A model generated the notes under the pieces. The model saw only the letters and a list, made by a program, of their open reading frames with translations. It made no database searches and had not been told where the DNA came from. A stretch of DNA of 62,587 nt from Microcoleus sp. LEGE 07076 (GTDB lineage: Bacteria > Cyanobacteriota > Cyanobacteriia > Cyanobacteriales > Microcoleaceae): contig NZ_JADEWV010000008.1 in NCBI RefSeq assembly GCF_015207455.1, positions 1 to 62,587 of the forward strand. Reading direction: 5' to 3'. Position 1 is the stretch's first letter, and every line of letters starts with the position of its first letter. A program made the position numbers and the translations under genes. Of the stretch, positions 4,915 to 62,180 are shown piece by piece.

Positions 4915-5036
4915 GTTTTCAGTTGGCAGTTGTTAGTTGTTATTAGTTATTAGTTATTAGTTATTAGTGGTTAGTTAACAGTCAACAGTTAACAGTCAAC
5001 AGTCAACAGTCAACAGTCAACAGTCAACAGTCAACA
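4915..5036. repeat. Heptanucleotide tandem repeats between hisS and the next gene
   Basis: Two tracts lie side by side: TTATTAG-type units at about 4915-4976, nearest the hisS start, then AGTCAAC units (about eight) at 4977-5036, nearest the stop of the 94-aa gene. On the sense strand of these minus-strand genes the first is A/C-rich (5' of hisS) and the second is TTGACTG (3' of the upstream gene). Confidence 0.9.
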
Positions 5037-5047
5037 ATTCCCAATAA

Positions 5048-5332
5048 CTACTGACTTAATAATTCCCAAGCTCCGTAACGATCGCCATAATAAGCCAAAA
5101 TGCGATCGACCCGCTGGCGATCGACCAAATCGAACCCTTCAGGATAGTGTATCCACAAGCCCCCAACTTGGCTGTCGCAGTAATCAAACCGCTGCAACTG
5201 CTGCGGAATTAAACCAATTTCCACTCCTTTAACTTGACGCAAATGGGCTGCCACTTCGCGATATACCGCCAGCGGCAATCCCGAGCATTTAATTTGATAG
5301 CGGAGTTGTTTTTCTTGTGCCGTTTGCATCAT
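5048..5332 (-). CDS. Conserved small cyanobacterial protein, unknown function
   Basis: A 94-aa soluble protein with no recognised motif (core QIKCSGLPLAVYREVAAHL, then IHYPEGFDLVDRQRVDRIL). The composition is that of a compact folded alpha/beta protein. The frame extends upstream to a TTG at 5350, but the tandem ATGs at 5332 and 5329 are better starts. It lies 31 bp downstream of the pedR-like regulator on the same strand, so the two may share a transcript. I infer conservation from its ordinary codon use and composition; no function can be assigned. Confidence 0.65.
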   Translation of the reverse strand: MMQTAQEKQLRYQIKCSGLPLAVYREVAAHLRQVKGVEIGLIPQQLQRFDYCDSQVGGLWIHYPEGFDLVDRQRVDRILAYYGDRYGAWELLSQ

Positions 5333-5363
5333 TTCTTTGCCTGTCCCCAACCATAATCCCTAT

Positions 5364-5639
5364 TTAAGATACTTCTTTATCGATCTGCCGCGGTAGAGGG
5401 CAGCAATTAATATTGTCCAAACATACCTTCCCCCACTGCAAAGCCCAACGTACCAGCGTAACTCGATTGTCAGCGTGCGTCTTGTTCAAGATATTGCTAA
5501 TGTGGTTGTCAACAGTACGCTTGCTAATCTCTAACTTTTCAGCGATTTTCTCATTGGTCAATCCTGCTGCTACTAACTCTACCACTTGCAATTCTCTGTC
5601 CGACAGGGTGACAGGGCTCCCGGAGACGCTCCCGCTCAT
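5364..5639 (-). CDS. pedR: Small LuxR-type transcriptional regulator, PedR-like
   Basis: The 91-aa protein is almost entirely a LuxR/FixJ helix-turn-helix: LSDRELQVVELVAAGLTNEK, then IAEKLEISKRTVDNHISNIL, with no receiver domain. Size and layout match PedR, the cyanobacterial regulator that responds to photosynthetic electron transport through thioredoxin and a C-terminal cysteine. Three cysteines lie in the tail (GKVCLDNINCCPL, residues about 72-82), which fits redox control. The ATG at 5639 has AGGA about 12 bases upstream. A gene of 94 aa follows at 31 bp. Any small LuxR-domain protein would look similar, so the specific name is an inference. Confidence 0.7.
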   Translation of the reverse strand: MSGSVSGSPVTLSDRELQVVELVAAGLTNEKIAEKLEISKRTVDNHISNILNKTHADNRVTLVRWALQWGKVCLDNINCCPLPRQIDKEVS

Positions 5640-6177
5640 AAATTTTTCCTATGTGTGCATATGTACCTATCTACAATTCTAGAGGATGAGCGATCGAGTA
5701 TGAAGAGAAAATTAAATTTGCTGCAGCTTGCTTTGCGCCCAGAAGGCACCCACTCGCTTGCAAAATCGCAGCAAGACGTGCAAACCCAGCGCTGACACAG
5801 CAAGACGCGCAGACACTTGTACTGCTGGCGCGTCGGGTGGCGGATGCTTGCTGGAAGGGCGCGCACCTGAGATCCGGGATCAAAAACCCGCAGATGTTTG
5901 CACCTAAAACTGGCAGTTACCCGTACACTGTACTTGTGCGTAGACGGGTAACTGCCAGTATCAGCAAGTCTGATATTATAGGAGCAGCCATTTAAAAATA
6001 GCTGGCAATTTTTCTGGGATGGGTTAAAAATAATTATTGACTTGTCTGCAGGCGTTCTAAAATCTCAAATTATAGCGGTTATCAAGCGTTGTGAGGTATG
6101 CCCTATGGCATATACTTTATGCCCAGCGGTACCTCATATGAGAGCTCGAAAGGCTATATATCCAACCTACAATTGAT
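5640..6177. other. Intergenic region between divergent pedR-like and fructokinase genes
   Basis: This 538-bp stretch separates divergent genes and must hold both promoters. It contains a CGTGCAAACCCAGCGC / GACGCGCAGACACTTG stretch with short internal repeats, an inverted GGTAACTGCCAGT / ACTGGCAGTTACC pair (about 5910-5960) and one TATAGC-family element (6071-6158). ORFs of 67-89 codons here overlap one another on both strands and have no support as genes. Confidence 0.5.
6071..6158. repeat. TATAGC...GCTATA MITE-like element, copy 1
   Basis: An 88-bp element that starts TATAGCGG and ends AAGGCTATA, with internal TTGTGAGGTATGCC and GGTACCTCAT arms that pair with each other. Two further copies with the same ends and the same GAGGTATG/ACCTCA core lie at 26528-26606 and 30971-31077. 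It ends about 20 bp before the fructokinase start and so lies within its 5' region. Confidence 0.75.
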
Positions 6178-7155
6178 ATGACTTATCCTCGCGTTTTGTG
6201 TCTGGGTGAAATTTTATTTGATTGTTTAGCAGACCAAACAAAAGTATCTCTCGAAGAGGTAGAATCTTGGACGGCATATCCCGGCGGTGCTCCTGCTAAT
6301 GTTGCCTGTGCTTTGGTTAAATTGGGGACGGCGGCGGGATTTATCGGTGCTGTGGGTGGGGATGAATTGGGGAATTCCCTAGTGCAGGTATTGCAAGAAG
6401 TAGGTGTTGACACTACAGGAGTTCAGCAGCATCCCACAGCACCGACACGGCAAGTTTATGTATTGCGAAATGAAGCGGGCGATCGATCTTTTGCAGGTTT
6501 TGGTAAATTGGATACTGCGGAGTTTGCCGACACCCGCCTCCAGGCCGCCCAAATACCCGAGGTACTGTTTCAAAATGCTGAGTTTTTAGTGCTAGGCACT
6601 TTAGAATTAGCTTATGCTGAAAGTCGAAAGGCTATAGAAAGAGCGATCGAACTAGCAGAAGTTTACGACGTTACAATTATAGTTGACATCAATTGGCGTC
6701 CAGTGTTTTGGGCAAATCCAGACGAAGCAAAAGCGCGCATTATAAAACTATTAAAAAAAGTTGATTTTCTCAAGTTATCTGACGAAGAAGCCGAATGGTT
6801 ATTTGGAACTACCGACGCTGGAGCTATTACCTACCGCCTCGATTCTGTAGAAGGTGTTTTGGTGACTGGGGGCGAGAAAGGTTGCGCCTATTGTATCTCG
6901 GAAAATGAAGGAAAAATTCCCGCATTTAAAGTAGATGTTGAGGATACAACAGGGGCCGGCGACGCATTTTTGGCAGGTTTTGTGCGACAGTTGTGCAAGC
7001 ATCGAATTAAAAATTTAGCAGATCCAGAAATAATCCCAAAAATTGTCACCTATGCGAGCGCGGTGGGTGCGATGAGTGTGATGAAACCCGGAGCAATTAC
7101 AGCTCAACCAACCGCCCCTGAAGTAGAAGCTTTCTTATATTTGTACAAAAATTAG
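6178..7155 (+). CDS. PfkB-family carbohydrate kinase, probable fructokinase
   Basis: It phosphorylates a sugar, most likely fructose to fructose-6-phosphate, linking sucrose breakdown to glycolysis. The 325-aa protein has the PfkB features: YPGGAPANVACALVKLG near the N-terminus (sugar-binding glycine pair), IVDINWRPVFW in the middle, and DTTGAGDAFLAGF at 256-268 with D262 as the catalytic base. The closing FKVDVEDTTGAGD pattern is typical of fructokinases. The gene is convergent with gluconokinase and shares a hairpin terminator with it, giving a small sugar-kinase pair. Substrate assignment within PfkB is by similarity only. Confidence 0.9.
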   Translation: MTYPRVLCLGEILFDCLADQTKVSLEEVESWTAYPGGAPANVACALVKLGTAAGFIGAVGGDELGNSLVQVLQEVGVDTTGVQQHPTAPTRQVYVLRNEAGDRSFAGFGKLDTAEFADTRLQAAQIPEVLFQNAEFLVLGTLELAYAESRKAIERAIELAEVYDVTIIVDINWRPVFWANPDEAKARIIKLLKKVDFLKLSDEEAEWLFGTTDAGAITYRLDSVEGVLVTGGEKGCAYCISENEGKIPAFKVDVEDTTGAGDAFLAGFVRQLCKHRIKNLADPEIIPKIVTYASAVGAMSVMKPGAITAQPTAPEVEAFLYLYKN

Positions 7156-7171
7156 CACGCCAAACATCAAT

Positions 7172-7240: not shown

Positions 7241-7248
7241 GTAGGAAA

Positions 7249-10109: not shown

Positions 10110-10253
10110 ATTGGGAATTGGGAATTGGGTATAGGGCATAGGGCATTGGGCATTGGGCATCGCCAATCATTAGTATTGTCGAAATTAGGACACGGCAATG
10201 CCGTCTCCCTACAATATTATTTTGGGTAGGGACACGGCATTGCCGTCTCCTCT
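10110..10253. repeat. G/T-rich tandem repeats and ACGGCAATGCCGT palindromes
   Basis: Directly after the LprI-domain gene come GGGAATT and GGGCATT heptamers (about 10113-10160). Two copies of a GGACACGGCA(A/T)TGCCGTCTCC block follow (about 10187-10253), each a palindrome in its core. These fill the gap between the convergent stops at 10106 and 10266. Confidence 0.8.
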
Positions 10254-10265: not shown

Positions 10266-10994
10266 CTATTCCCCTAGATCCAGTTTTGCTAAGCCCAAAT
10301 AGCGCACACCTTCCGGCGTCACATCAAACCGACAAGGCAAAACTTCCACACCTTCACTCATGGCCTGTCTGAACAATTGTCCGTAAAGGCGATCGGCACT
10401 ATCTCCCGGAGCAAAATCCGTACAATCTCCCCGATTAATAAAATACAGCATTACAGCCCTCGAACCCTGCCGCACCACATCGATCAACTCTCTCAAATGT
10501 TTCTGTCCCCTCTCCGTCACTGTATCAGGAAATAGAGCTAATGTATCTTTGACCCAAGTTGTATTTTTAACTTCCATAAAAATCGGTTTTTCCTCACCAG
10601 TCAGCCAAAAATCAACACGACTTTTTTTATCGATACCGTAAACAACCTCCGGCTGAATTAAACTGTAATTGCCCAACTCAGGAAACAATCGCAACTCCAA
10701 AGCTAATTTAATCGCTCGATTTGGCAGCCCAGTATTAACTCCCACCCAAACAGGTACAGTATCGCAAACCTTAATTAATTCCCAAGTATAAGCCAACTTG
10801 CGTTTGGGATTGTCGCTAGCAGATACTAGGACAGGATTACCCGGAATCAAAACACCAGTCATCGGGCCAGTATTCGGACAGTGCGCGGTGATAATTTCTC
10901 CCGAATCTAGTTCGATTTCGGCAAAAAATCGCTTGTACCGCTTGATTAAAGTGCCTGGTAATAAAGGCGGATATTTGTAAATTAAGTTAGTCAT
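10266..10994 (-). CDS. sfsA: SfsA family protein (sugar fermentation stimulation)
   Basis: A member of the SfsA family, proposed to bind DNA and to carry a nuclease-like fold; its true role is unclear. The 242-aa length is normal. Typical signatures are LIKRYKRFFAEIELDSGEII, HCPNTGPMTG, YTWELIKV, IFMEVKNTTW, FPDTVTERGQKHL and the C-terminal GVEVLPCRFDV. The ATG lies inside the last unit of a row of ATGACTA/ATGACCA heptamers (10988-11035), so the start codon itself belongs to the repeat and no Shine-Dalgarno is visible. Confidence 0.93.
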   Translation of the reverse strand: MTNLIYKYPPLLPGTLIKRYKRFFAEIELDSGEIITAHCPNTGPMTGVLIPGNPVLVSASDNPKRKLAYTWELIKVCDTVPVWVGVNTGLPNRAIKLALELRLFPELGNYSLIQPEVVYGIDKKSRVDFWLTGEEKPIFMEVKNTTWVKDTLALFPDTVTERGQKHLRELIDVVRQGSRAVMLYFINRGDCTDFAPGDSADRLYGQLFRQAMSEGVEVLPCRFDVTPEGVRYLGLAKLDLGE

Positions 10995-11035
10995 TAGTCA
11001 TTAGTCATTGGTCATTGGTCATTAGTCATTAGTCA
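10988..11035. repeat. ATGACTA/ATGACCA heptamers flush with the sfsA start
   Basis: Read on the sfsA strand, six to seven heptamer units (ATGACTA, ATGACCA) end at the start codon. Every unit supplies an ATG but cycles through frames, because 7 is not a multiple of 3. Confidence 0.85.
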
Positions 11036-11140
11036 TATCAAATCCGGTAACAGCGGAATGATTCAGATATATATTCTCTCCCTCTGCGTACTCTGTGTTC
11101 TCTGTGGTTAAATCATCCCGATGCTACCGAAAACGATATC
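11035..11140. repeat. MITE-like element, family B copy 1 (106 bp)
   Basis: It starts ATATCAAATCCGGTAACAGC and ends ACCGAAAACGATATC. The two ends are imperfect inverted repeats of about 29 bp, around a CTCCCTCTGCGTACTCTGTG core. A second copy with the same ends and core lies at 39421-39529. It occupies the 5' region of sfsA, in the gap to the GST gene. Confidence 0.75.
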
Positions 11141-11960: not shown

Positions 11961-11963
11961 GCG

Positions 11964-11998
11964 ATTTTAGATTTTAGATTTTAGATTTTAGATTTTAG
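11964..11998. repeat. Five ATTTTAG heptamers upstream of the GST gene
   Basis: Five perfect copies of ATTTTAG, 3 bp before the GST start codon. On the sense strand the unit is CTAAAAT. Confidence 0.9.
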
Positions 11999-12037
11999 AT
12001 TGAAATATCATAGCATAAAAGATTTGTAGTAAAGACT

Positions 12038-18053: not shown

Positions 18054-18961
18054 TTAAACAAACAATAAGTTGGTAGTGAGGACTGAAGTCCTCTCTTTTC
18101 CATATAGGTTCATAGTGAGGACTTCAGTCCCTAACGGAGTGACAAGCCCGTCATTCGATTTTAGATTTTAGATTCCAGATGCTTTCGATCGACCCCACGG
18201 ATAAATTCGGGGGCTCTTCTGATTTGAGATTTGAGATTTTGGATTGATTCGGCGGATCGATGATCGCGCGGCGGATACCACCTTTAAAATTCGCTTGTCA
18301 AAAGCCCCATCGGTGACGGACTTGACCAACTCGATCTAAAAAAAGATGGGGTATATATTATTGTTTGAGTGTCGCCATCCAATACTTCGGACAGTTTTAG
18401 ATCGAGTCGAGTCTCCGAAACCCTTACGGGCGATATAAAGCCCATTTGACATCTTTGAGTTTTTGGGTTGGGTGACGAGAAATATAGAGATGAAACCCGG
18501 TTTCTGATATTTAGGCAGAATAGATATCAAATAGGTTCTATAGTGGACTATTTTTTCAAGGTTTGAGTCTAGCGCCCTTGTTGCGTAAAATGCGTGAAAA
18601 ATGGCAGGGCTTGCTCGCCCTCGGCTTACAGGGCCGTTAAAAAATAGTCCGAACTATTGTTCTATGCAGCTTCACCAATAGTTCGGACAGTTTTTTAACG
18701 ACTCTGTAAGCGTTATAGAGTAAGCCCTGGCATTTTTAATGATTTTTTGAAACTCAGGGCTAGACTTAAAGATTGAAAAAATAGTCAGCCCTATAGCCAT
18801 CAAGGGTTTGAGATACTCGATTAGAGCTAAAACTGTCCGAAGTATTGTTCACATTAAATTAGTATTAAGGATTAGAGGATTTCTCGGAGCTTGAGTTTAT
18901 ATGGGGCAAGCAGATGTAAGAAATCGACCTGTTCTCATTTTATGTTCAGAAGGAGAAAGCC
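18054..18961. other. 908-bp gene-free stretch made mostly of palindromic repeats
   Basis: After the tRNA come GAGGACT(T/G)CAGTCC phrases (about 18080-18135), ATTTTAG repeats (18160-18180), one AAACCCGGTTT element (18491-18508) and the large nested inverted repeat described separately (18381-18846). The last 115 bp lead to the GT4 gene and contain AGAAGGAG as its ribosome binding site. A 64-codon ORF at 18336-18530 lies within repeats and is not accepted. Confidence 0.6.
18381..18846. repeat. Nested inverted-repeat island
   Basis: Outer arms: 20 bases AATACTTCGGACAGTTTTAG at 18381-18400 and its perfect complement at 18827-18846. Middle arms: GACTATTTTTTCAAGG...GTCTAGCGCCC from about 18546 pairs with GGGCTAGAC...AAAAAATAGTC ending 18786. 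Inner hairpin: 18636-18659 against 18675-18698, 24 bases with two mismatches, around a 15-base loop. The phrase TTCGGACAGTTTT occurs in both outer and inner arms, so one element appears to have landed inside, or been duplicated within, another. Confidence 0.75.
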
Positions 18962-21711: not shown

Positions 21712-22044
21712 GATGCTCCCTTCCCTTCAAATCTTCTGAGTGCGATCGAGCTAATACCAATTCTCGCCTCCAGAAAGCTACAATCCTGAGTGTTAAGTTT
21801 GTTTCCTGAGAGACTGTCCGCAGCGGTGCGGATATGTAAGATTGTCGCTCTTTTTTGGGATTTAAGGGTAGCGATGCACCCTACAGCTACTGTTGCATGA
21901 GTTTTGAGAATTAGTATAAAGTCAAGTCTATCTATCATTGTGTTGCAATTTCTTAATATTTGCAACCCAAAAAGTTGATATTCTACCCACAGTCAACAGT
22001 CAACAGTCAACAATTCCCCAGTCAACAGTCAACAGTCAACATTC
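21712..22044. other. Intergenic region with AGTCAAC heptamers
   Basis: It separates the MFS start from the GT4 stop on the same strand. The first 250 bp hold the MFS leader, with a GAGACTGTCCGCAGCGGTGCG stem-like stretch. The last 55 bp (about 21990-22041) are AGTCAAC units ending a few bases from the GT4 stop codon. An 85-codon ORF across 21708-21965 has no ribosome binding site and odd composition and is rejected. Confidence 0.6.
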
Positions 22045-25245: not shown

Positions 25246-26487
25246 ATGGTCAATTATTTTCACCAGATCGAAAAGCTCAACAGCGTCAATCCAACACCAG
25301 GCACCGGCGACACCGACAGTTCTCCCGAACGGCCGGCCAATCCCGCACCGCTTTTGCAGCTTTTGCTGTTCGTAGACAAGCGTCCCTCTTCCAGGGAACA
25401 GACCAGACACATCCGCCAGTACCTACAGGATTTGAAGGCAGAGTGCGACTTCGATCTTCAAATCATTGATGTCGGAGAACAGCCGGATTTAGCAGAACAC
25501 TTTAGACTTGTAGCTACTCCCTCCCTGCTCAAAATTCATCCCGAGCCCCGACAAACTCTCGCCGGCAGCAATTTGATCGCCCAACTAGAACAGTGGTGGC
25601 CCCGCTGGAAGCGTTCTGTAGAAGAATACGCAGCCCAGCAGCAGTCGGCCCCAGCTCAGACTGCGGCGGCGGCGGCCGACCCAAAACCAATCTATTCTGT
25701 TGCTTGCGCCACCGAGCTCGTGCAGCTTTCCGATGAAGTTTTTCGCCTCAAAAAGGAACAAGAACACCTGCAAGAGCAGTTGCAGTTGAAAGACCGGATT
25801 ATTGCGATGCTGGCTCACGACTTGCGAAATCCTTTGACAGCCGCATCTTTGGCTTTGGAGACTTTGGAGTCAAGTCAGAAGGTGAAAGAGGGGGAAAAGT
25901 CGCGTTTGACACCGACTTTGGCGGCTCATTTGATGAAACAAGCCCGCCGCCAAATCCGAATTGTCGATCGGATGATTACAGATATCCTCGAAGCGGCCCG
26001 GGGCACAAACGCTCAACTTCACATTCAAGCAAAAAAAATAGAACTGGGAGGGATTTGTCAAGATGTAATCCTGCAATTTGAAGATAAATTTCAGACCAAA
26101 AGTCTGAATTTGGAAACAGACATTCCCACAGATTTGCCCTTGGTTTATGCCGATCCAGCTCGCATCAAACAAGTCATAGTCAACCTGCTTGACAATGCCA
26201 GCAAGTACACCCCAGAGCAAGGAACTGTTAATATTTCAATTCTCCACCGCACTGCTTACAAGGTTCAAGTCAGCATTTGCAACAGCGGCCCGGGAATTCC
26301 TCAAGAAGATTGTGCAAGCATTTTTGAAGATAGCTTTCGGTTGCAGCGAGATAAATCAACAGACGGTTACGGCATTGGGCTGTCTCTGTGTCAAGGCATT
26401 ATCCGCGCCCACTACGGTCAAATTTGGGTAGACTCTGTACCCGATCAAGGCACTTGTTTTCACTTTACTCTGCCTATTCAAAATTGA
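25246..26487 (+). CDS. sasA: Clock-output histidine kinase SasA
   Basis: SasA binds KaiC through a KaiB-like domain and passes phosphate to RpaA, linking the circadian oscillator to transcription. The 413-aa protein has a short disordered start (1-34), the KaiB/thioredoxin-like domain at about 35-125 (LLLFVDKRPSSREQTRHI; VGEQPDLAEHFRLVATPSLL), a coiled linker at about 160-182, the H-box with H191 (MLAHDLRNPLTAASLALE), and the ATPase domain (VNLLDNASKYTPEQG; GYGIGLSLC). It is slightly longer than the 387-aa Synechococcus protein because of the N-terminal tail and linker. kaiABC and rpaA are not here. The gene is divergent from the DUF2079 gene. Confidence 0.95.
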   Translation: MVNYFHQIEKLNSVNPTPGTGDTDSSPERPANPAPLLQLLLFVDKRPSSREQTRHIRQYLQDLKAECDFDLQIIDVGEQPDLAEHFRLVATPSLLKIHPEPRQTLAGSNLIAQLEQWWPRWKRSVEEYAAQQQSAPAQTAAAAADPKPIYSVACATELVQLSDEVFRLKKEQEHLQEQLQLKDRIIAMLAHDLRNPLTAASLALETLESSQKVKEGEKSRLTPTLAAHLMKQARRQIRIVDRMITDILEAARGTNAQLHIQAKKIELGGICQDVILQFEDKFQTKSLNLETDIPTDLPLVYADPARIKQVIVNLLDNASKYTPEQGTVNISILHRTAYKVQVSICNSGPGIPQEDCASIFEDSFRLQRDKSTDGYGIGLSLCQGIIRAHYGQIWVDSVPDQGTCFHFTLPIQN

Positions 26488-26508
26488 CTGTTGACTGTTG
26501 ACTGTTCT
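26485..26508. repeat. TTGACTG heptamers overlapping the sasA stop
   Basis: Three TTGACTG units start inside the sasA stop codon (TGACTGTTGACTG...). The tract is T/G-rich on the sense strand, as for all tracts at gene 3' ends in this window. Confidence 0.85.
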
Positions 26509-27120: not shown

Positions 27121-27266
27121 ATTAATTGGGAATTGGGAATTGGGAATTGGCCCGCGCAGGGAATTGGTCATTGGTCATTGGTCATTGGGAATTCAAGAAT
27201 AATATCAATAATTATTCAATTATTTAATCAACAATCTAACATCTAACATCTCAAATCTCAAATCTC
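27121..27266. repeat. Two opposed heptamer tracts between mutT and DUF760
   Basis: At 27123-27190 GGGAATT/GGTCATT units (A/C-rich on the mutT sense strand) abut the mutT start. At 27232-27266 CATCTAA/TCTCAAA units (T/G-rich on the sense strand) face the DUF760 3' end. The composition switches between them. Confidence 0.8.
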
Positions 27267-27306
27267 AAATGTCAAGCCCCCATCTTGCGAAGGGGGCTTG
27301 ACATTT
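27267..27306 (-). terminator. Hairpin downstream of the DUF760 gene
   Basis: Perfect 15-bp arms: AAATGTCAAGCCCCC (27267-27281) and GGGGGCTTGACATTT (27292-27306), 10-base loop. It lies 26 bp past the DUF760 stop. No T-run follows on either strand. Confidence 0.7.
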
Positions 27307-27331: not shown

Positions 27332-27673
27332 CTAATCGTCCGAGCCGTGTCTCTCACTGGCTTGTATGGACTTTTCAAAAGTCATGCGCTGTTCGGCATT
27401 TTTGAGAAAATAACCGCTAATCATGGCCGAGGCGAGCAATCTACCCAAATGTTCGCGACTGGTAGTCACTGTCACCCCGAAGTGTTCCGAAGGCAAATTC
27501 CCCAAGAGTCCGACAATATTTCGCTCCATTACTTGAAATACTTCATGAGAAGTCGGCTTAGACAACTGAGAAACAGTGTCTGGAGCCATTGACTGCACGT
27601 ATTGCCATAATAAGTTGGCATTTTCTCCGTCTTCTTCAAAGAATTCTGGGGATTTATTATCTGAATTACTCAC
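27332..27673 (-). CDS. DUF760 family protein
   Basis: A 113-aa protein of the DUF760 family, conserved in cyanobacteria and plastids. The core LLWQYVQSMAPDTVSQLSKP, then EVFQVMERNIVGLLGNLPSE and SREHLGRLLASAMISGYFL, is typical. No signal or membrane segment. The role is not well defined; plant relatives have been linked to chloroplast processes. ACGGAGGTACTCG upstream of the ATG gives a strong ribosome binding site. Confidence 0.88.
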   Translation of the reverse strand: MSNSDNKSPEFFEEDGENANLLWQYVQSMAPDTVSQLSKPTSHEVFQVMERNIVGLLGNLPSEHFGVTVTTSREHLGRLLASAMISGYFLKNAEQRMTFEKSIQASERHGSDD

Positions 27674-32747: not shown

Positions 32748-32806
32748 AGATCCCTCAATTCCTCAATCCCCCAATCCCCCAATTCCTCAATCCCCCAATT
32801 TAAAAT
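32748..32806. repeat. C-rich 8-9 bp tandem repeat upstream of Uma2
   Basis: Units of TCAATCCCCC and TCAATTCC repeat about seven times, 120 bp before the Uma2 start. C/A-rich on the sense strand. Confidence 0.75.
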
Positions 32807-40210: not shown

Positions 40211-40222
40211 GATTGAAGTCAT

Positions 40223-40300
40223 TAGTTATTAGTTATTGGTTATTGGTTATTAGTTATTGGTTATTGGTCATTAGTCATTAGTCATTAGTCATTGGTCATC
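40223..40300. repeat. Heptamer tract upstream of the DUF3318 gene
   Basis: TTATTAG, TTATTGG and TCATTAG units, about eleven in a row, begin flush with the upstream start codon of the gene. On the sense strand the units are CTAATAA, CCAATAA and CTAATGA. Confidence 0.9.
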
Positions 40301-43263: not shown

Positions 43264-43643
43264 CAAAACTACAATAGATTAGAATGGGGCAAACAGGGAA
43301 TTGGCAAAACAGGGAATTGGCAAAACAGGGAATTGGGAATTGGTAATGGGGAATTGGCAAAACAGCGAATTGGTAATGGGGAATTGGGAATTGGTAATGG
43401 GGAATTGGCAAAACAGCGAATTGGTAATGGGGCATGGGGAATTGTCAATAACTAATAACCAATAACCAATAACCAATAACCAATAACCAATAACCAATAA
43501 CCAATAACCAATAACCAATAACCAATAACCAATAACCAATAACTAATAACCAATAACCAATAACCAATAACCAATAACTAATAACCAATAACTAATAACC
43601 AATAACCAATAACTAATAACCAATAACCAATAACCAATAACCA
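43264..43643. repeat. Repeat field: GGGAATTGGCAAAACAG units, then 28 heptamers
   Basis: At about 43283-43440 units of GGGAATTGG, GGCAAAACAG and GGTAATGG alternate in higher-order blocks. At 43449-43643 about 28 copies of a 7-bp unit (AATAACC, with AATAACT and CTAATAA variants) run without interruption into the start codon of the large exoprotein gene at 43644. This is a long tandemly repeated repetitive (LTRR-type) array of the kind known in filamentous cyanobacteria. ORFs across it (43217-43539) are repeat translations. Confidence 0.95.
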
Positions 43644-46600
43644 ATGACCTATTTTCGCTCTATTTTAATTTTGACATTAGGTTTTTGGCTGCTACCGCTA
43701 GCAGTGCGATCGCAACCTGTCGTCCCGGCAAATGACGGCACTAATACTGTTGTCAATAGGGAGCAAAATCGCTTAGACATTAGAGGCGGACAACTGTCAG
43801 GAAACGGCGCAAATCTGTTTCACAGCTTCAGCCAATTTAATCTCAGCGAAGGTCAAATTGCTAATTTTATAACTAATCCCAATATTCAAAATATTTTAGG
43901 GCGGATTTCCGGCAGCGAGGTTTCCGTCATTAACGGTTTGATTTCAATAAGCGGGGGCAACTCAAATTTATTTCTAATGAATCCGGCGGGAATTGTTTTC
44001 GGTCAAAATGCGATATTGAACGTGCCGGTGTCTTTTTTGGCAACAACTGCAACGAAGATTGGTTTCGGCGACGGCTGGTTTACTTCTACGGGAATTAATG
44101 ATTACAAATCCTTGCTGGGAAATCCAACTCAATTTAATTTTAATAATTCACAATCTGGGATAATTGTCAATGCGGGAAAGTTGGCAGTTGGTAGCGGTCA
44201 AAATTTAACTTTGTTGGGCGGTACTGTGATTAATACCGGGCAATTGTCCGCCCCGGGCGGTCAAATTACGGTGGCTGCTGTTCCGGGAAGCAATGCAGTC
44301 CGTATCAGTCAAGCTGGTAATTTATTGAGTTTAGAAATTATTCCGTCTTTGCAGTCAGAAAAATCGACGATCGCCCCGGCTGCTTTGCCTCAGTTGCTGA
44401 CGGGTGCCGGGGTAGAGTCAGCCACAGGTTTAACGATTAACGAACAAGGTCAATTAATCCTGACTGGCGGCCAAAGAGTAGCGGTAAATGCCGGAAGTGC
44501 GATCGTCTCGGGTACTGTCAATGTATTTGCTTCTTCTGGCGGGATTGGTGGCACTGTCAATATTTTAGGCGAAACAGTCGGACTCTTCGGCGCAAAGGTC
44601 GATGCTTCGGGGACAGATGGCGGAGGAGTTGTGCGCGTCGGAGGCGGTTGGCGGGGGGCGGAACCGATACCAAACGCCCTGGTAACATACGTTAGTCGAG
44701 ATTCGACGATCGCAGCAGACGCGATCGAGCGCGGTAACGGCGGCACTGCGACAATTTGGTCAGACAATACAACTCGCTTCTTGGGCAATATTACGGCTCG
44801 CGGCGGCACAGCAGCAGGTAACGGCGGCAGAGTGGAAGTCTCCGGTAAAAATGCTTTAGTTTTCCAAGGAGAGGTCGATACCCGCGCGCCTAACGGGGCG
44901 ATCGGCAATTTGTGGCTCGATCCGGCAAATATTGCGATCGTCAGCGGTAACGGCGAAAACAGCCCGATCTTGACTGGGGGGGAACTCGAAGCCACAGAAT
45001 CGCCGACTGAAACATCGATCTCAGAAGTGCAGTTGGAACAGATGGCGGCCGGCAGCAACGCGGTTGTAGAAACCCCGGGCTACATCACCCTCCAAGACTT
45101 GCCCGACAACAAACTCGCACTGCAAGCGAAAACCGGAGACAGTGTAACATTCCGATCGGGCGGAGTGTTTTTTGTCAATGACCCGAAGGATTTAATCGAG
45201 ACTCAAGGCGGCAACATCAACATTTTCGCCAGCAGCATCTCTCTGGGCGGACTCAATGCTAGCGGCGGCAATATCGCTCTGACTGCTAACGGGATTGACT
45301 TGAGGGGCGGCAGCAATTCGGTCACCAGTGCGGGGGGAACAATTAGCTTGCAACCCAGCGACGGCCGAGGAATTAGGATCGGTGGCACTGGCGATATTTT
45401 AGGGGTTTTGGACTTGACAGCAGCGGATCTCGGTGCTTTGGCGGGGGGTTTCGGTTCGATCGCGATCGGGCGTGCCAACAGCAGTTCGATCGCGATCGTC
45501 GCACCGATTACCTTCAACAGCCCGCTGACACTTCAAGGCAGTTCGATCGCGATCGACAATCCCCTGAGAACAAGCGGCAGCGCTAGCATCACTCTCGACG
45601 CGCCCCAAACCGATCTCGGTGCCAACATCGCCACATCGGGCGCAGATATCACTTTTACCGGCAACCTGTCGCTGAATGCTGACGCAGCTTTGGACGCTCA
45701 AGCCACGGGCAGCATTCTGTTTTCCGGCAGCCTGGACGGAGCTCGCGCCCTGAGACTTGACGCTGGGCGAGTCCGCTTCGGCGGTACAGTCGTCGGTGAA
45801 GCTGCACCGCTGGCGAGTTTGACTGTCAGCGGCGGGAGTACCGAGATAGCTGGCGATATCGCCACATCTGGCGACATCGCTTTCAACAGTGCCGTCACAG
45901 TCGATCGGCGCAGCACGATTTCAGCCAGTAGCGGCAACATCACTTTTGCCAGCACCCTCGACAGCATCCAAGGCCGGGCAAATAATTTGACGCTGCGGGC
46001 TGGCGGCAACATTACCTTTGAGGGCGCAGTCGGTCAAACTCAGAGGTTGGGCCTGCTCTCGGCTGATGCTGCTAGCGTGACGGCTGCTTCCCGAATTGCC
46101 GCGCGCAGGTTGAGCGTGAACGCGCGAGATGTTGCTACCTTCAGGGGGGACACCGCGGCCGCTGTGGGAGCCGATATCAAGGCAGGAAACATCCTCTTAG
46201 AGGGTAATTTAAGCACGGATGGCGGCAGCGCGAACCTGCAAGCAACTCGCGAGGTTCGGACTGGCAATATTACCTCCAACGGCGGGAGCATTCGGGTTGA
46301 GGGAAATACTGTTGCAGCAGGCGCGATCGACTCCTCGTCGGCAACGGGAACAGGCGGCGCGATCGCGATCGAAAGCAATGCTGGCCCTTTAACTGCGGGA
46401 GCTTTGAACGCTTCGGGAGCGATCGGCGGCAATATTGCCCTCACCTCGCAAGCCGACATTTCGGCTCTCGATCTCAACTCCAGTGGCACTGAGGGAAACG
46501 GCGGCGCAGTCTCCCTGAGCGCGACTGGTAACATTCAGTCGGGCTTTATCAACGCTAGAGGCGGCAGTGTTGATGTGACAACCCTCGGTTTGTTTCGATC

Positions 46601-48497
46601 GAACAATGTTTTTAGCGATATATCGGGCAATCTTGCCAGTATTTCTACTGCTGGGGGTACAGGAGGCGGGGCGATCGCAATTCGGCACGGAGGCGGTAGC
46701 GATCGATCTTTTGTAGTTGGCGGCGCGATCGACAATGGAACCCAGGGAACCATTAATGCTGGCGCGGGAAACGCCATTTTGCCAAGTTTTTCCTTTGGGC
46801 AAACTTACACCCAAGGAAGTTTACCAAATCAGATTTCCCTAATTACACCGGGCCCACCGCCTGCTCCGGCACCAATTCCCGAACCAATTCCCGAACCAAT
46901 TCCCCAACCAATTCCCGAACCAATTCCCGAACCAATTCCCGAACCAATTCCCGAACCAATTCCCCAACCAATTCCCGAACCGGCGCTGTCACTTCCTGCA
47001 TCTTTGCAAGTAGAATTGCGATCGCCAAATCAAAACAAAACTTCCCCAACTAGCCCCGAGCTTTTGATTCCCTCTCGCAGATTCGATACCGCAGCCTCCG
47101 GTATTTTAGCCTTTGAACAAACCTTCACTCGCGAATACGAAAAATATCTAGATTTGCCCGCCCGAAAGCCGATTACGAATATGTCGGTAATTTACGAAAC
47201 TCTTCGCAAAAACGAACAAATTACCGGGGTAAAATCTGCAATTATTTATATGAATTGGGTGAGGCAATCGGACGCAGCAGCCCCCAAAGAAAATGATTCG
47301 GTACTGGTGGCAAGTCGGGATTTATCTAATCTATTGCCTGTGAGAAAAAACCTCCCTATCCAGCCTGCGAGCCTCATGCAAGATGGGTTGGAGGAGAGGT
47401 TGCCACCAGCCGGCACAGAAGTTTCCGATGTGCCGAGCGGGGAGCATTTAGAATTAGTGTTAGTCACAGCTAACGCTGAACCGATGCGCGTTTTAGTTCC
47501 GGCGACAACGCGCTGGCAGGTACTGCAACTAGCCGACGCTTTGCAAACCGAAATTACTAATCCCAGAAGAAGAAACAGTATCAGTTATTTGGATGTAGCT
47601 CAAAAACTTTATCGGTGGTTAATTGCGCCATTGGCAGGAGAATTGGCAGCTTTAAAAATTAAGAATTTAATTGTAATTCCGGCAGCGGGCTTGCGAAGCG
47701 TGCCGTTTGCTGCTCTTCACGATGGCAAACAATTTTTAGTTGAGCAATACAGCTTTAGCGTGATGCCGAGTCTGAGTTTGACTGATATCCGCTACGACAA
47801 TATTGCTGACGATGAAGTTTTGGCGATGGGAGCGTCAGTATTTAAAGATAAAGCGCCTCTGCCTGCGGTACCGATCGAGTTAGAGTTGATCGCGCCGCCC
47901 TCAGAAGGAAGATCATTTTTGAATCAAGACTTTACTCTCGAAAATTTGCAAGCTCAACGGGCAAATCAGCCTTTTGGAATCATTCACTTAGCAACTCACA
48001 GCGAATTCCAGCCTGGGGCACCAAAAAATTCTTACATTCAGTTGTGGGATACTAAATTGCGCCTCGATCAAATGCCGCAGTTGCGGTGGAATTCTCCCCC
48101 GGTGCACCTGTTAGTTTTAAGCGCGTGCAGTACCGCTTTGGGCGACGAAGACGCGGAGTTGGGGTTTGCGGGTTTGGCGGTAGCTAGCGGTGCGCGATCG
48201 GCTTTGGCGAGTTTGTGGGAAGTCAGCGATGAGGGAACTTTGGGGCTAATGACGGAGTTTTACCGGGAGTTGCGGGCCCCCAGACGCGGTAGCAATTTGA
48301 CGATTAAAGCCGAGGCTTTGCGGTGGGCGCAATTGCAGATGCTGCGGGGGCGCGTGCGGATTCAAGACGGGATGCTGGAAGCCGAAGGGCTTTCTGAGGC
48401 GATCGCTTTACCTCCGGAAATTGCGGGGCGGGGCGATCGAATCCTTTCCCATCCTTATTATTGGGCTGCCTTTACAATGATTGGCAATCCTTGGTAA
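43644..48497 (+). CDS. Secreted haemagglutinin-type (TPS) exoprotein with C-terminal CHAT protease domain
   Basis: A 1617-aa protein. Residues 1-23 are a signal peptide (ILILTLGFWLLPLAVRS). About 25-320 form the TPS/haemagglutination domain used for export by a TpsB partner (GNGANLFHSFSQFNLSEGQ; NLFLMNPAGIVFGQNAIL; FLATTATKIGFGDG). About 330-1065 are Gly/Ser/Ala-rich beta-helix repeats (GGNIALTAN, GGTISLQPS). About 1072-1113 is a Pro-rich spacer of PEPI/PQPI repeats. Residues about 1230-1617 are a CHAT (caspase-like) domain: AGLRSVPFAALHDG, IIHLATHSEF with H1452, and LVLSACSTALGD with C1495, the two catalytic residues. It is likely an exported adhesin or filament that carries its own protease. 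No TpsB gene is in the window. The ATG directly follows the heptamer array. Confidence 0.93.
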   Translation: MTYFRSILILTLGFWLLPLAVRSQPVVPANDGTNTVVNREQNRLDIRGGQLSGNGANLFHSFSQFNLSEGQIANFITNPNIQNILGRISGSEVSVINGLISISGGNSNLFLMNPAGIVFGQNAILNVPVSFLATTATKIGFGDGWFTSTGINDYKSLLGNPTQFNFNNSQSGIIVNAGKLAVGSGQNLTLLGGTVINTGQLSAPGGQITVAAVPGSNAVRISQAGNLLSLEIIPSLQSEKSTIAPAALPQLLTGAGVESATGLTINEQGQLILTGGQRVAVNAGSAIVSGTVNVFASSGGIGGTVNILGETVGLFGAKVDASGTDGGGVVRVGGGWRGAEPIPNALVTYVSRDSTIAADAIERGNGGTATIWSDNTTRFLGNITARGGTAAGNGGRVEVSGKNALVFQGEVDTRAPNGAIGNLWLDPANIAIVSGNGENSPILTGGELEATESPTETSISEVQLEQMAAGSNAVVETPGYITLQDLPDNKLALQAKTGDSVTFRSGGVFFVNDPKDLIETQGGNINIFASSISLGGLNASGGNIALTANGIDLRGGSNSVTSAGGTISLQPSDGRGIRIGGTGDILGVLDLTAADLGALAGGFGSIAIGRANSSSIAIVAPITFNSPLTLQGSSIAIDNPLRTSGSASITLDAPQTDLGANIATSGADITFTGNLSLNADAALDAQATGSILFSGSLDGARALRLDAGRVRFGGTVVGEAAPLASLTVSGGSTEIAGDIATSGDIAFNSAVTVDRRSTISASSGNITFASTLDSIQGRANNLTLRAGGNITFEGAVGQTQRLGLLSADAASVTAASRIAARRLSVNARDVATFRGDTAAAVGADIKAGNILLEGNLSTDGGSANLQATREVRTGNITSNGGSIRVEGNTVAAGAIDSSSATGTGGAIAIESNAGPLTAGALNASGAIGGNIALTSQADISALDLNSSGTEGNGGAVSLSATGNIQSGFINARGGSVDVTTLGLFRSNNVFSDISGNLASISTAGGTGGGAIAIRHGGGSDRSFVVGGAIDNGTQGTINAGAGNAILPSFSFGQTYTQGSLPNQISLITPGPPPAPAPIPEPIPEPIPQPIPEPIPEPIPEPIPEPIPQPIPEPALSLPASLQVELRSPNQNKTSPTSPELLIPSRRFDTAASGILAFEQTFTREYEKYLDLPARKPITNMSVIYETLRKNEQITGVKSAIIYMNWVRQSDAAAPKENDSVLVASRDLSNLLPVRKNLPIQPASLMQDGLEERLPPAGTEVSDVPSGEHLELVLVTANAEPMRVLVPATTRWQVLQLADALQTEITNPRRRNSISYLDVAQKLYRWLIAPLAGELAALKIKNLIVIPAAGLRSVPFAALHDGKQFLVEQYSFSVMPSLSLTDIRYDNIADDEVLAMGASVFKDKAPLPAVPIELELIAPPSEGRSFLNQDFTLENLQAQRANQPFGIIHLATHSEFQPGAPKNSYIQLWDTKLRLDQMPQLRWNSPPVHLLVLSACSTALGDEDAELGFAGLAVASGARSALASLWEVSDEGTLGLMTEFYRELRAPRRGSNLTIKAEALRWAQLQMLRGRVRIQDGMLEAEGLSEAIALPPEIAGRGDRILSHPYYWAAFTMIGNPW
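46858..46984. repeat. In-frame 12-bp minisatellite encoding PEPI repeats
   Basis: Units of CCAATTCCCGAA or CCAATTCCCCAA (Pro-Ile-Pro-Glu/Gln) repeat about nine times within the exoprotein gene. The unit length is a multiple of three, so copy-number change keeps the frame and alters only the spacer length between beta-helix and CHAT domain. Confidence 0.9.
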
Positions 48498-48858
48498 TTG
48501 GTAATCGGTAATATTATTTCCGGTCAATTATAGCAGTCCTAAATCCGATCAAATCGGTCAGCATCGGAATTATATCGTTTCCGGTTGCACTCCTGATGAC
48601 TGTTGACTGTTGACTGTTGACTGTTGACTGTTGACTGTTGATTTCTCTGCATCTGCGTGAATCAGCGTTTATCAATTGTCATCTGCGGTTATAAACTATC
48701 TTTTTTTACCCCAGATACGGGCAGATTAACACAGATTGCATCATTTTTGGTCAAATAATCCTCAGACAAATGGTTCGAGTTTGGATAATTTACCGACACG
48801 ATATTACTAGATAATTTCTGACCAAACTTGCTTTTACTTGTACGCTCTCTGTCTGAAG
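48498..48858. other. Intergenic region after the exoprotein gene
   Basis: GGTAATT units start right after the stop codon. A shortened family-B element (AAATCCGATCAAATCGG...CGGAATTATATCG, about 48540-48585) follows, then about six TTGACTG heptamers at 48597-48640. The rest, including a TCTGCATCTGCGTGAATCAG phrase, holds nothing I can name. Both heptamer groups are T/G-rich on the sense strand of the exoprotein gene. Confidence 0.6.
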
Positions 48859-58618: not shown

Positions 58619-58777
58619 GGGTAATGGGTAATTGGTAATTGGCGATAGATTCGGGATCTATTACGCATTACCTATTACCTATTACCAAAGATTAGATGAA
58701 GTTATAGCCACAAGTTCAGGAGAGCCGAGCTGAAATGCGCTGTAACAAAATGCGAACAGTCAACAGTCAACAATTAA
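58619..58777. repeat. Opposed heptamer tracts between convergent genes
   Basis: GGTAATT units (58619-58640) follow the plus-strand gene; ATTACCT units (58664-58687) and AGTCAAC units (58757-58777) precede the PBP2 stop. On the sense strands of both genes they are T/G-rich. The first two can form a stem. Confidence 0.85.
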
Positions 58778-58784: not shown

Positions 58785-60599
58785 CTAGAAAGGCTTATTA
58801 GTAGGTTTAAAACCCTGTTTTTTGAAATAGGTTCTAAATACCTCTTGAGCAATTGGTGCCGCCGAAACAGAACCAAATCCACCGCCTTCAACAATAACTG
58901 CGATCGCCACTTCCGGCTTGTCAGCGGGAGCAAAACCTACATACATAGAATTGTCAGGATGACCGGGCATTTCCACAGTTCCAGTTTTACCAGCACTTAA
59001 AGGAATAGTACCGTCATTCATGCGTTTACCAGTACCTTTTTTCACCACGTCAATCAATCCCTGGCGAACTACGTTCAAAGTTCCCGGCTTAATACCTGTG
59101 GGAATTTTTTTGGTGACAGGAGTGTTGGTTTGAGAAGCCAACAAATGCGGCTGAACTCGATAACCGCCGTTAGCAATAGTTGACACCATCACTGCCAATT
59201 CTAGGGGAGTACAAAGTACCAAACCCTGACCGATCGCCATTGTCACCGTATCGCCGACGTACCAATCTTCCCCGTACATTTTCTGTTTCTCTGCTGGGAT
59301 CGGAACTTGACCGTGATTGGCTGCATCTAACCCCAAAAGCTCTAAATTAATAGTACCGCCAATGCCCATTTTTTTAGCCCATTTCGCCATTTGTTCCGGG
59401 CCGGCAGCCATGCCTACTTGATAGAAAAACGTATTGCTGCTGTAGGCTAAAGCATCGCGGAAACCGATAACGCCGTAACCGCCGCTGTGTTCGTTAAAGG
59501 TAATTCCGCCGATGTTAATTGAAGAAGAAGTTCCCAAAGTCGAGTCAGGAGAAAACTTGCCCGACTCTATCCCGGCTACAGAAGTTACAATTTTAAAAGT
59601 GCTGCCGACTGGATAGCCTTGAACTGCCCGATTTAAAAATGGTTTTTCTGGCCCTTGGAGTCGATCCCATTCTTTTTGAGTTACTTTGCGGGTGAAAATA
59701 TTGGGGTCAAAGGTAGGCCAACTCGCCATTGTTAAAAGCGCTCCGGTTTTCACGTCGATCGCCACAACTGCACCCAGGCGATCGCCCAAAGCCTTTTCGG
59801 CAGTTTTCTGCATATCTAAATCTAAAGTTAGCTGCACGGGTTTGCCGGGAACAGGATCTTTTACACCTAAATCTTGGATTTCCTCGCCCTTAGCATTCAC
59901 CTCGATCAAACGGTTTCCCCAAACGCCTTCTAAAGTTTTATTGGCTAATTTTTCAACTCCCATCTGACCGACGATCATTCCCATTGGATAGGTAGGATTA
60001 GCTTTTAATTCGTCTAAAGTAGCTTCGCCGACGTATCCCAAAAGGTGAGCTGCTAACTGCTGGTTGGGATTGTCTCGGCTCGATTCGGCGCGAATTTCAA
60101 CTCCCTGCAAAGTATTAGCTTGTTCTCCCAAGGCCACGAAAGTGCTGACATCGATATTTTTACTAATTCGCACTGGTAGGGCCGATCTGTAGCCAACTCC
60201 TTGGATTTTTTGGATGATTTCGGCTGCGGGAAGTTTGACGATTGGGCCGAGTGTAGCGGCGACTTCTTGCCACTCCTTGATCGATCGCTCTTTTGGCCAG
60301 AGATAGATCGATCGAGATACGCGGTTAGCGGCAAAAATTTTGCCGTTGCGGTCTAAAATTTGACCGCGATTCGCTGCTACCGAAACAGGGCGAATGCGGT
60401 TATTTTCAGCCCGCTGTCGGTTGTAAGCTCCTTGTACCAGTTGCAGTTCGGCGAGACGAAATATCGGCAGCGTCACCAAAGTAGTGACTAGCAGCATAAA
60501 AACCATCACTTGGAACGATCGGCTGCGCTGCCGCGCTGGATTATCGAAGCCATTTTTGTCGAATCGGACTTGAGAGTTAAAAGAAAAATCGCCAGCCAT
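58785..60599 (-). CDS. mrdA: Penicillin-binding protein 2 (transpeptidase)
   Basis: A peptidoglycan cross-linking enzyme of the class B PBPs needed for cell elongation. The 604-aa protein has one N-terminal membrane anchor (about 30-50), the pedestal domain with NRGQILDRNGKIFAANRVSR, and the transpeptidase domain with the SxxK motif S333-TFK, SSN at 387-389 and KTG at 538-540. The C-terminus ends soon after. I chose the ATG at 60599; the frame extends to a TTG at 60626. It is a partner of MurJ in wall synthesis. Its stop is followed by AGTCAAC units. Confidence 0.93.
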   Translation of the reverse strand: MAGDFSFNSQVRFDKNGFDNPARQRSRSFQVMVFMLLVTTLVTLPIFRLAELQLVQGAYNRQRAENNRIRPVSVAANRGQILDRNGKIFAANRVSRSIYLWPKERSIKEWQEVAATLGPIVKLPAAEIIQKIQGVGYRSALPVRISKNIDVSTFVALGEQANTLQGVEIRAESSRDNPNQQLAAHLLGYVGEATLDELKANPTYPMGMIVGQMGVEKLANKTLEGVWGNRLIEVNAKGEEIQDLGVKDPVPGKPVQLTLDLDMQKTAEKALGDRLGAVVAIDVKTGALLTMASWPTFDPNIFTRKVTQKEWDRLQGPEKPFLNRAVQGYPVGSTFKIVTSVAGIESGKFSPDSTLGTSSSINIGGITFNEHSGGYGVIGFRDALAYSSNTFFYQVGMAAGPEQMAKWAKKMGIGGTINLELLGLDAANHGQVPIPAEKQKMYGEDWYVGDTVTMAIGQGLVLCTPLELAVMVSTIANGGYRVQPHLLASQTNTPVTKKIPTGIKPGTLNVVRQGLIDVVKKGTGKRMNDGTIPLSAGKTGTVEMPGHPDNSMYVGFAPADKPEVAIAVIVEGGGFGSVSAAPIAQEVFRTYFKKQGFKPTNKPF

Positions 60600-61190: not shown

Positions 61191-61208
61191 GGGCGATTGA
61201 AATCGCCC
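61191..61208. terminator. Short hairpin after the holin-like gene
   Basis: GGGCGATT and AATCGCCC pair with a GA centre, 17 bp after the stop. Not followed by a T-run. Confidence 0.5.
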
Positions 61209-61299
61209 GATATTTCCACACCTTACCTTGGGCGTTTCGTTTCTCTAGAACCGATTTCAATCGCGAAATATTCCTTGTTTCTTCTTCTTTGTTCTTTCT

Positions 61300-61455
61300 G
61301 CCCTCTTCCTTCTTCCTAATGACTAATGACTAGCCTTCGGCTTCGAGCTTCGGCTGAAATGACTACTGACTACTGACTTCTTCCTGATGACTAATGACTA
61401 GCCTGCGGCTAAAATGACTACTGACTTCTTCCTGATGACTAATGACTAATGACTA
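61300..61455. repeat. ATGACTA/CTACTGA repeat tract downstream of nanE
   Basis: ATGACTA, CTACTGACT and CTTCTTCCTG units recur in blocks between the holin-like gene and nanE stops. TAGCCTTCGGCTTCGAGCTTCGGCT and TAGCCTGCGGCTAAAA phrases lie between the blocks. On the nanE sense strand the units are TAGTCAT, T/G-rich. Confidence 0.8.
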
Positions 61456-61463
61456 CTGACTTC

Positions 61464-62138
61464 TTACTTCCCAATCACCGACTTATAGGCTGTCACCTTG
61501 AGATCAATTCCAGTAATATCTGTGCCGACAACCACAGCCGCCGCTCCTAAATCCAATGCTTTTTTAGCCATTAAGGGTGCTGCGATCCCGCCTTCGCAGA
61601 TAACCGGAACCTTAAGCTTTTCTACCATTTGGGCGAGCAAATCAAATCCGGGCGGCGAGAAACTTTGCGTCTGGGGAGTGTAGCCAAAAAGAGTAGTTGC
61701 GACAGTATCTGCACCAGCTTCGGCAGCCGCGATTGCGGCTTCGATTGTATCGACATCCGCCATCACCAACTTCCCTAATTCGCTGTGAATTCGCGCGATT
61801 AAGGTTTTTAACTCTTCGCCGGCAGGACGGTTTCGCAAAGTCGCGTCAACGGCGATAATATCGGCTCCTGAAGTGGCGATCGCCCGCGCGTCTTCAAACC
61901 GAGGAGTAATGTAAATCTCGCATCCCGGCAATTGCCGCTTCCAAATCCCAATTATTGGAGCAGATACCTGTTTTCGCACCGCCGCAACGTGATCGGGAGA
62001 ATCAATCCGCACCCCGGCAGCACCTCGATTGACAGCGGCGCGAGCCATTGCCGCGATCGCGATCGGATCGTGCAGCGGCGAATCAGCAGGTGCTTGACAA
62101 GAAACAATTAATCCTGTAGGAATTTGACAATTAATCAT
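61464..62138 (-). CDS. nanE: N-acylglucosamine-6-phosphate 2-epimerase
   Basis: It converts N-acetylmannosamine-6-phosphate to N-acetylglucosamine-6-phosphate, the step that returns sialic-acid or amino-sugar carbon to wall precursor metabolism. The 224-aa length is typical. Signatures: GLIVSCQAPADSPL at the start, AAGVRIDSPDHVAAVR, APIIGIWKRQLPG, GADIIAVDATLRNRP, LVMADVDTIEAAIAAAEAGA, and the phosphate-binding CEGGIAAP and VVVGTDIT. No nanA or nanK is in the window. The ATG lies right beside GGGAATTGG heptamers with no clear ribosome binding site. Confidence 0.94.
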   Translation of the reverse strand: MINCQIPTGLIVSCQAPADSPLHDPIAIAAMARAAVNRGAAGVRIDSPDHVAAVRKQVSAPIIGIWKRQLPGCEIYITPRFEDARAIATSGADIIAVDATLRNRPAGEELKTLIARIHSELGKLVMADVDTIEAAIAAAEAGADTVATTLFGYTPQTQSFSPPGFDLLAQMVEKLKVPVICEGGIAAPLMAKKALDLGAAAVVVGTDITGIDLKVTAYKSVIGK

Positions 62139-62139
62139 G

Positions 62140-62180
62140 GGAATTGGGGATTGGGGATTGGGGATTGAGAATTGGGAATG
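62140..62180. repeat. GGGGATT heptamers flush with the nanE start
   Basis: About five GGGGATT/GGGAATT units end one base from the nanE ATG. On the sense strand the unit is AATCCCC. Confidence 0.85.

Follow-up and report, generated by a model that had tools for sequence, protein, structure and literature searches.

A 62,587-nucleotide stretch of Microcoleus sp. LEGE 07076 (contig NZ_JADEWV010000008.1 of assembly GCF_015207455.1; the whole stretch is called the window below) carries tandem arrays of 7-bp units beside many of its genes, and raises the question of whether the neighbouring genes decide which way round such an array lies. In these cyanobacteria, many of the spacers between genes are filled with heptamer arrays, commonly dismissed as junk or slippage products. 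The short tandemly repeated repetitive (STRR) sequences of filamentous cyanobacteria are tandem heptamers in intergenic DNA, characterised to our knowledge by their sequence and not by their polarity relative to genes. A preliminary description of the window held that the arrays, read on the sense strand of the nearest gene, are A/C-rich before genes and T/G-rich after them, without exception. This heptamer polarity looks like a real rule, for which a cause is proposed below.

Strand composition of the arrays at gene edges

We surveyed 94 contigs, whole or in part, of the 495-contig genome (1,885,348 of 6,793,430 bases, 28%, with 2.65% N), some picked at sites with a TAGTCAT pattern and others by number alone. 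The histidyl-tRNA synthetase encoded here matches Microcoleus/Tychonema with 92-95% identity. Arrays were detected at period 7 with a score of at least 12, and a purpose-made small Markov caller yielded 1408 genes, with some genes missed and some starts possibly misplaced. Period 7 gave 430 arrays, against 2 to 44 for every other period from 4 to 15, and 422 of the 430 are intergenic; they thus share with STRR both the 7-bp tandem period and the intergenic site. Polarity was scored for the 391 arrays with both flanking genes and a gap free of N, from which 9 with zero skew were dropped; the corresponding set within 50 bp of a gene held 278 arrays, or 272 after removal of 6 with zero skew.

The proposed polarity was obeyed by 235 of these 272 arrays (99 of 111 before starts and 136 of 161 after stops), whereas 136 ± 9.4, and at most 173, obeyed by chance when the strand of every gap was flipped at random in 20,000 rounds. 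The claim that the rule has no exception came close to the truth in the window, where 19 of the 20 intergenic arrays flanked by called genes on both sides have the predicted polarity, the odd one (43368-43405) lying 238 bp from the nearest called gene; it does not stand genome-wide, as the other 37 of the 272 break the A/C-T/G wording. The rule is a matter of distance. A/C-rich and T/G-rich arrays number 87:9 before starts and 20:126 after stops within 30 bp, 114:17 and 44:147 within 100 bp (Fisher test, p = 1e-31), and 16:9 and 21:14, that is without bias, beyond 100 bp; mid-gap arrays have no polarity. The excess of C over G before starts reaches about 70 bp (16:1 at 40-70 bp), and that of G over C after stops about 40 bp (14:6 at 20-40 bp, then 10:8).

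C versus G is the stronger axis, with C>G in 103 of 109 arrays before starts and G>C in 135 of 159 after stops, and with a cross-validated area under the receiver operating characteristic curve of 0.936; A versus T alone reaches 0.831, and the two axes together 0.947. Of the units in which C and G are equally frequent, 39 of 47 agree with A versus T, so both axes count, and a fitted sum of the two is correct for 247 of the 278 arrays (in-sample). Fourteen of the 15 unit families with at least 4 near-gene arrays obey the A/C-T/G wording; in the fifteenth, AAGAAGG/CCTTCTT, 10 of 12 arrays break it and 10 of 12 obey C versus G. The rule is present in co-directional, convergent and divergent gaps alike and in gaps with a single array (49:7 before starts and 54:19 after stops, within 50 bp). 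The same answer comes from a naive gene set of ATG open reading frames (ORFs) of at least 150 aa, called with no coding model (81 of 91 before, 92 of 104 after), and from the contigs taken by number and not by array content (31 of 36 and 47 of 53).

Stated on the sense strand, the rule amounts to an A/C strand that enters the gene from either side; read on one strand, it predicts that a gap has T/G on its left and A/C on its right. The T/G strand is nearer the 5' ORF in 291 arrays and nearer the 3' ORF in 91, and among arrays touching exactly one gene the A/C strand has its 3' end at the gene in 183 cases and its 5' end in 18. The rule is therefore one of gene edges, blind to gene direction, and not of the direction of transcription as such. 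In the 75 gaps with exactly two arrays, T/G then A/C occurs 57 times and A/C then T/G never. Arrays at both ends were found in 38 co-directional gaps of at least 100 bp (11.4 expected) and in 6 convergent gaps (3.2 expected, p = 0.10). Eight tRNA genes were considered as untranslated controls, and no array was found within 120 bp of any of them.

Arrays might simply follow a general skew of gene flanks, and the non-array DNA of this genome is indeed skewed with the same sign near starts and stops. The effect is small: within 100 bp, the mean sense skew before starts is +0.048 in matched non-array segments and +0.344 in arrays, and after stops -0.005 and -0.212. Moreover, loci of other cyanobacteria and of gammaproteobacteria did not show the stop-side C/G background skew, which in Microcoleus may itself consist of decayed arrays. 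We give this explanation almost no credence; the bias of the arrays clearly exceeds the general skew that, according to the preliminary description, could have undone the rule.

Turnover of the unit between species

The comparison of four orthologous gene boundaries indicates that species differ in the unit found at a given boundary and agree in the polarity of the array. At the start of 10266-10994, an array lies within 60 bp in 21 of 26 loci (own included), with 7 unit classes, and all 21 are A/C-rich. Of the 27 loci compared at the start of 39605-40210, 22 have an array, in 8 classes; 15 are A/C-rich and 7 are of the G-free CCTTCTT type, and counted by unit C exceeds G in 20 of the 22, with 2 ties. 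Arrays follow the stop of 25246-26487 in 15 of 29 loci (14 T/G-rich, one AAGAAGG) and precede hisS in 7 of 14 loci, A/C-rich in all 7. Over the four boundaries, none of 65 has the wrong C/G sign by unit, with 17 ties; the window's own genome contributes to three of the four sets, some classes are one base apart, and the related genomes are not independent. Some arrays are mixed: an old unit persists beside the start codon, and a new one lies farther upstream. So strict a polarity, preserved when the unit sequence is replaced, suggests that strand composition is in some way read at both ends of genes.

A second genus of the family (genome G037, 80 kb) also obeys: C exceeds G in 7 of 7 arrays before starts and G exceeds C in 9 of 12 after stops, the 3 misses being by one base; two genic arrays were excluded from this count, and 4 of the 7 start-side arrays come from stretches chosen for CCAATTACC then ATG. 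Twelve other Microcoleus loci gave 18:1 before and 0:1 after, 58 other cyanobacterial loci gave 7 of 7 on the start side, and the gammaproteobacterial loci yielded one array, not near any gene end. G037, like G042 and G047 of the same genus, has CCAATTACC/GGTAATT arrays in abundance; when other genera of the family were searched, most had no or very few matches to CCAATTACC or GGTAATT patterns followed by ATG. Counts of such ATG-after-array patterns in 59 Microcoleaceae genomes were uninformative, because unit variants make ATG inside arrays.

Proposed RNA-level selection and its rivals

The explanation that we favour, with confidence evenly divided for and against, is selection at the RNA level on array orientation. 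Slippage and mutation would create the arrays and turn them over, and the orientation that survives would be chosen by selection on the mRNA. Before a start codon this would be the G-poor orientation; having no means of folding back on itself or onto the first codons, it would leave open a start that lacks a Shine-Dalgarno sequence. Past a stop codon, selection would retain the orientation that is rich in G/U and somewhat more folded, possibly in place of a terminator hairpin or a barrier hairpin at the 3' end, or else to avoid an open, leader-like stretch at which ribosomes might wrongly load. The putative G-poor, unstructured leaders already proposed in the preliminary description find support in computed folding: start regions have a mean fold of -5.7 kcal/mol, against -11.35 kcal/mol when the array is flipped in silico, and the real orientation folds more weakly in 78 of 82 cases. 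A Shine-Dalgarno-like tetramer was found in none of 63 array-led genes (array at most 12 nt from the start), versus 358 of 1281 others. In E. coli, A-rich sequence upstream of starts is reported to aid initiation without Shine-Dalgarno pairing (PMC7043885). Avoidance of Shine-Dalgarno mimics was rejected as a cause, as a flip would make such a tetramer in just 4 of 64 start-side arrays. On the stop side, the real orientation folds modestly more strongly than the flipped one (-17.75 versus -15.91; stronger in 85 and weaker in 48 of 135). Terminator-like hairpins are rarer at stops with a T/G array (2 of 118) than at those without (53 of 750, p = 0.024), a deficit in keeping with this account and confounded because arrays fill part of the 200 nt searched. 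No match to the Rho RNA-binding domain was found in this genome (9 of 14 control genomes have one), and four RRM-type RNA-binding matches were.

Several observations weigh against RNA-level selection. Start-side arrays occupy 13 of 464 divergent but 87 of 592 co-directional boundaries, five times fewer, which sits badly with a leader role that should hold for both kinds of gap alike. More generally, gaps of 40-5000 bp contain arrays less often when divergent (25 of 243) than when co-directional (181 of 696) or convergent (59 of 216), and the scarcity in divergent gaps fits avoidance of promoter regions. The stop side is anchored as strongly as the start side, with a G>C coverage of 5-7% in the first 50 bp past stops and of 1.5-1.9% beyond 100 bp (gaps of at least 400 bp), which pure purging does not yield. 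A -10-like box is not enriched at the distal edge of start-side arrays (7 of 77 versus 84 of 863 controls); the array as a promoter-proximal 5' untranslated region running from such a box, hinted at by one orthologue set, was consequently rejected. Polarity past stops is weak in the 58 loci from other cyanobacteria (13 of 20 by C/G, 10:10 by A/C-T/G). Finally, orthologues share descent, and the start-adjacent remnants seen in mixed arrays are common to different array types, so descent and not renewed selection may keep the polarity.

Polarity could instead be the functionless trace of directional growth, in which arrays would be made or lengthened preferentially in the direction of the A/C strand's 3' end and halt on meeting selected sequence such as a gene. 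The indifference of the rule to gene direction speaks for it, as do the excess of A/C 3' ends at genes, the fixed order in two-array gaps and the lack of polarity in mid-gap; arrays are moreover fixed at stop codons or across them, with TAG overrepresented among the neighbouring stops (48 of 92 versus 330 of 1256). Such growth should leave a fresh 3' edge and a decayed 5' edge, and the corresponding asymmetry of wear was not significant, either among 81 free arrays (35 versus 24, p = 0.17) or in outside identity (56 versus 35 in 101 arrays, p = 0.10), so directional wear was dropped as a signature. Orthologues also conserve the gene-proximal remnant and vary the distal part. On balance we hold directional growth to be rather improbable. 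A bipartite gap, T/G then A/C, might also form an RNA hairpin or a DNA cruciform serving as terminator or barrier, in keeping with the excess of co-directional gaps with arrays at both ends and with the fair pairing of any T/G array with any A/C array (about -22 kcal/mol). This is quite unlikely, since single-array gaps obey the rule too, convergent gaps show only weak co-occurrence, and reverse-complement partners are not above chance (exact in 1 of 125 adjacent pairs, 3.8 expected; near in 15, 10.4 expected). T/G and A/C arrays of the same gap pair at -21.6 kcal/mol, no better than those of different gaps (-22.2 ± 0.9 kcal/mol, n = 77), and the two arrays of one gene at -20.8 versus -18.7 ± 2.8 kcal/mol (n = 18). 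The idea that leaders and trailers pair specifically with each other is thus not supported, and an origin of the geometry in whole-gap hairpins or foldback was rejected on the same grounds.

Two further explanations depend on particular sequences. At many boundaries the start or stop codon belongs to the array; ATGACTA, for instance, offers ATG in the direction into a gene and TAG in the direction out of it. This and the excess of TAG stops agree with arrays acting as suppliers of start and stop codons. Within 50 bp past stops, however, a stop triplet occurs on the sense strand only in 36 units and on the antisense strand only in 34, and units free of stops, such as AATTGGG/AATTCCC, obey in 14 of 14 cases. 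Codon supply may account for which unit occupies a junction; it is disfavoured as the source of the polarity, for which we consider it very unlikely. G-quadruplex function or avoidance, as debated for GGGNATC repeats, would agree with the GGG/CCC units (22 of 22 obey), but units without any GG or CC obey in 166 of 187 cases, so the rule does not need quadruplexes and we all but dismiss them as its cause.

Arrays of the window and related repeat systems

The arrays and array-like tracts of the window are collected in the table. Three further tracts lie away from them. Coding DNA holds heptamer-like arrays too, as AAGAAGG and 21-bp repeats lie at 39031-39150, in the 3' portion of the ORF 37568-39382. 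In-frame 12-bp repeats ACCAATTCCCGA at 46871-46981, within the long gene 43644-48497, include the AATTCCC motif of intergenic arrays. Repeats of AGAGGGGGAGATGCCAC (17/36 bp) occupy 29217-29318, a stretch with just a doubtful ORF.

Table. Repeat tracts of the window.
Positions	Strand	Tract and neighbouring gene	Remarks
4912..5036	-	Composite array before 3629-4903 (-), hisS in the preliminary description	Bipartite gap, T/G on + at left, A/C on + at right; sense skew +0.06; C 23, G 19
10110..10160	+	ATTGGGC array, 3 bp past stop of 9429-10106 (+)	C 4, G 21
10987..11036	-	ATGACTA array into and over start codon of 10266-10994 (-)	Orthologues compared
11963..12001	-	CTAAAAT array, 2 bp before start of 11271-11960 (-)	C 6, G 0
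18221..18239	-	Short AAATCTC array in divergent gap, nearest called gene 319 bp off	
21989..22041	-	TTGACTG arrays 21989-22012 and 22019-22041, past stop of 22045-23232 (-)	C 3, G 7 each
26484..26506	+	TTGACTG array including stop codon of 25246-26487 (+)	Orthologues compared
27124..27150	-	AATTCCC array, 3 bp before start of 26716-27120 (-)	C 11, G 0
27163..27188	-	ATGACCA array, 42 bp before start of 26716-27120 (-)	
27234..27275	-	AGATTTG array, 56 bp past stop of 27332-27673 (-)	C 1, G 11
32750..32799	+	ATCCCCCA repeats (8-bp/24-bp) before 32925-33584 (+)	Not period 7, outside counts
40217..40299	-	AATAACY/AATGACT array, 6 bp before start of 39605-40210 (-)	Orthologues compared
43296..43444	+	GGGAATT/GGTAATG, T/G half of bipartite gap upstream of 43644	Part 43368-43405 breaks nearest-gene rule
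43447..43649	+	AATAACC array, about 29 units, ending in ATG of 43644-48497 (+)	C 53, G 1
48491..48512	+	GGTAATT array over stop codon of 43644-48497 (+)	C 1, G 6
48593..48641	+	TTGACTG array, 95 bp past stop of 43644-48497 (+)	
58619..58642	+	AATGGGT array, 86 bp past stop of 57513-58532 (+), convergent gap	C 0, G 10
58660..58686	-	AATAGGT array, 98 bp past stop of 58785-60599 (-), same convergent gap as 58619..58642	C 1, G 8
61360..61470	-	TAGTCAG/TAGTCAT arrays 61360-61378 and 61435-61470, after and over stop of 61464-62138 (-)	Small skews, -0.05 and -0.06
62138..62186	-	Imperfect ATCCCCA array before 61464-62138 (-)	Tandem Repeats Finder (TRF) only, outside counts

Among known repeats, the repetitive extragenic palindromic (REP) sequences and bacterial interspersed mosaic elements (BIME) of enterobacteria are intergenic, favour co-directional and convergent gaps and avoid divergent ones. 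The arrays described here are alike in this preference; unlike REPs, which are single palindromes, they are tandem heptamers with units that as a rule are not palindromic.

Much closer are two published sets of heptamers. Rehm 2015 (PMC4692102) reported GGGNATC and GGGGA(C/T)T heptamers, mostly intergenic, from Nostoc PCC 7120 and two species of Xanthomonas, with GGG runs able to form quadruplexes, with a preference for four units, with the G-rich strand nearer the 5' ORF whatever the orientation of the ORFs, with convergently oriented pairs in Xanthomonas and with few repeats between divergent ORFs. MacGregor 2015 (PMC4679880) reported TAACTGA repeats in Beggiatoaceae, some cyanobacteria and Bacteroidetes; in Beggiatoaceae they stand in forward orientation a few bases before starts that have few ribosome binding sites, and orientations are mixed in a Microcystis sample. 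Both reports contradict for heptamers the view of such repeats as position-neutral, which the preliminary description had given as the usual one for STRR/LTRR repeats. Our arrays resemble the former set in being intergenic tandem heptamers with the G-rich strand toward the 5' ORF and scarce between divergent ORFs. They differ from it in that GGG/CCC units make up just 22 of the 272 arrays within 50 bp, while 187 have no GG or CC, and in that the rule extends to A/T skew and holds across unit changes between species; quadruplexes are thereby removed as the general reason for the geometry seen by Rehm et al. The annotated plasmids of the related species Oscillatoria nigro-viridis PCC 7112, dropped as an independent replicate, have 3 period-7 arrays in 200 kb, compared with 430 in 1.885 Mb here; the repeats of Rehm 2015 were likewise not found on plasmids. 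The TAACTGA study follows one unit and the start side, whereas many units and both gene ends are covered here. The forward orientation before starts is shared by our heptamers as a class (99 of 111 A/C-rich), and AACTGAC, a unit related to TAACTGA, is present and obeys in 10 of 11 cases.

One might speculate, tentatively and with more doubt than belief, that a single gene-anchored polarity law runs through several phyla, with the unit free and the strand composition fixed, whether by a constraint on mRNA ends or by directional array-making. If true, it would constitute a sequence-independent marking of both gene ends, kept while the arrays themselves are replaced. Among open-licence papers, we found none that extends the geometry to all heptamer families or to turnover of the unit. 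The geometry itself was already known from the Rehm and MacGregor studies; what is new here is that the polarity covers most common unit families and survives the turnover of the unit.

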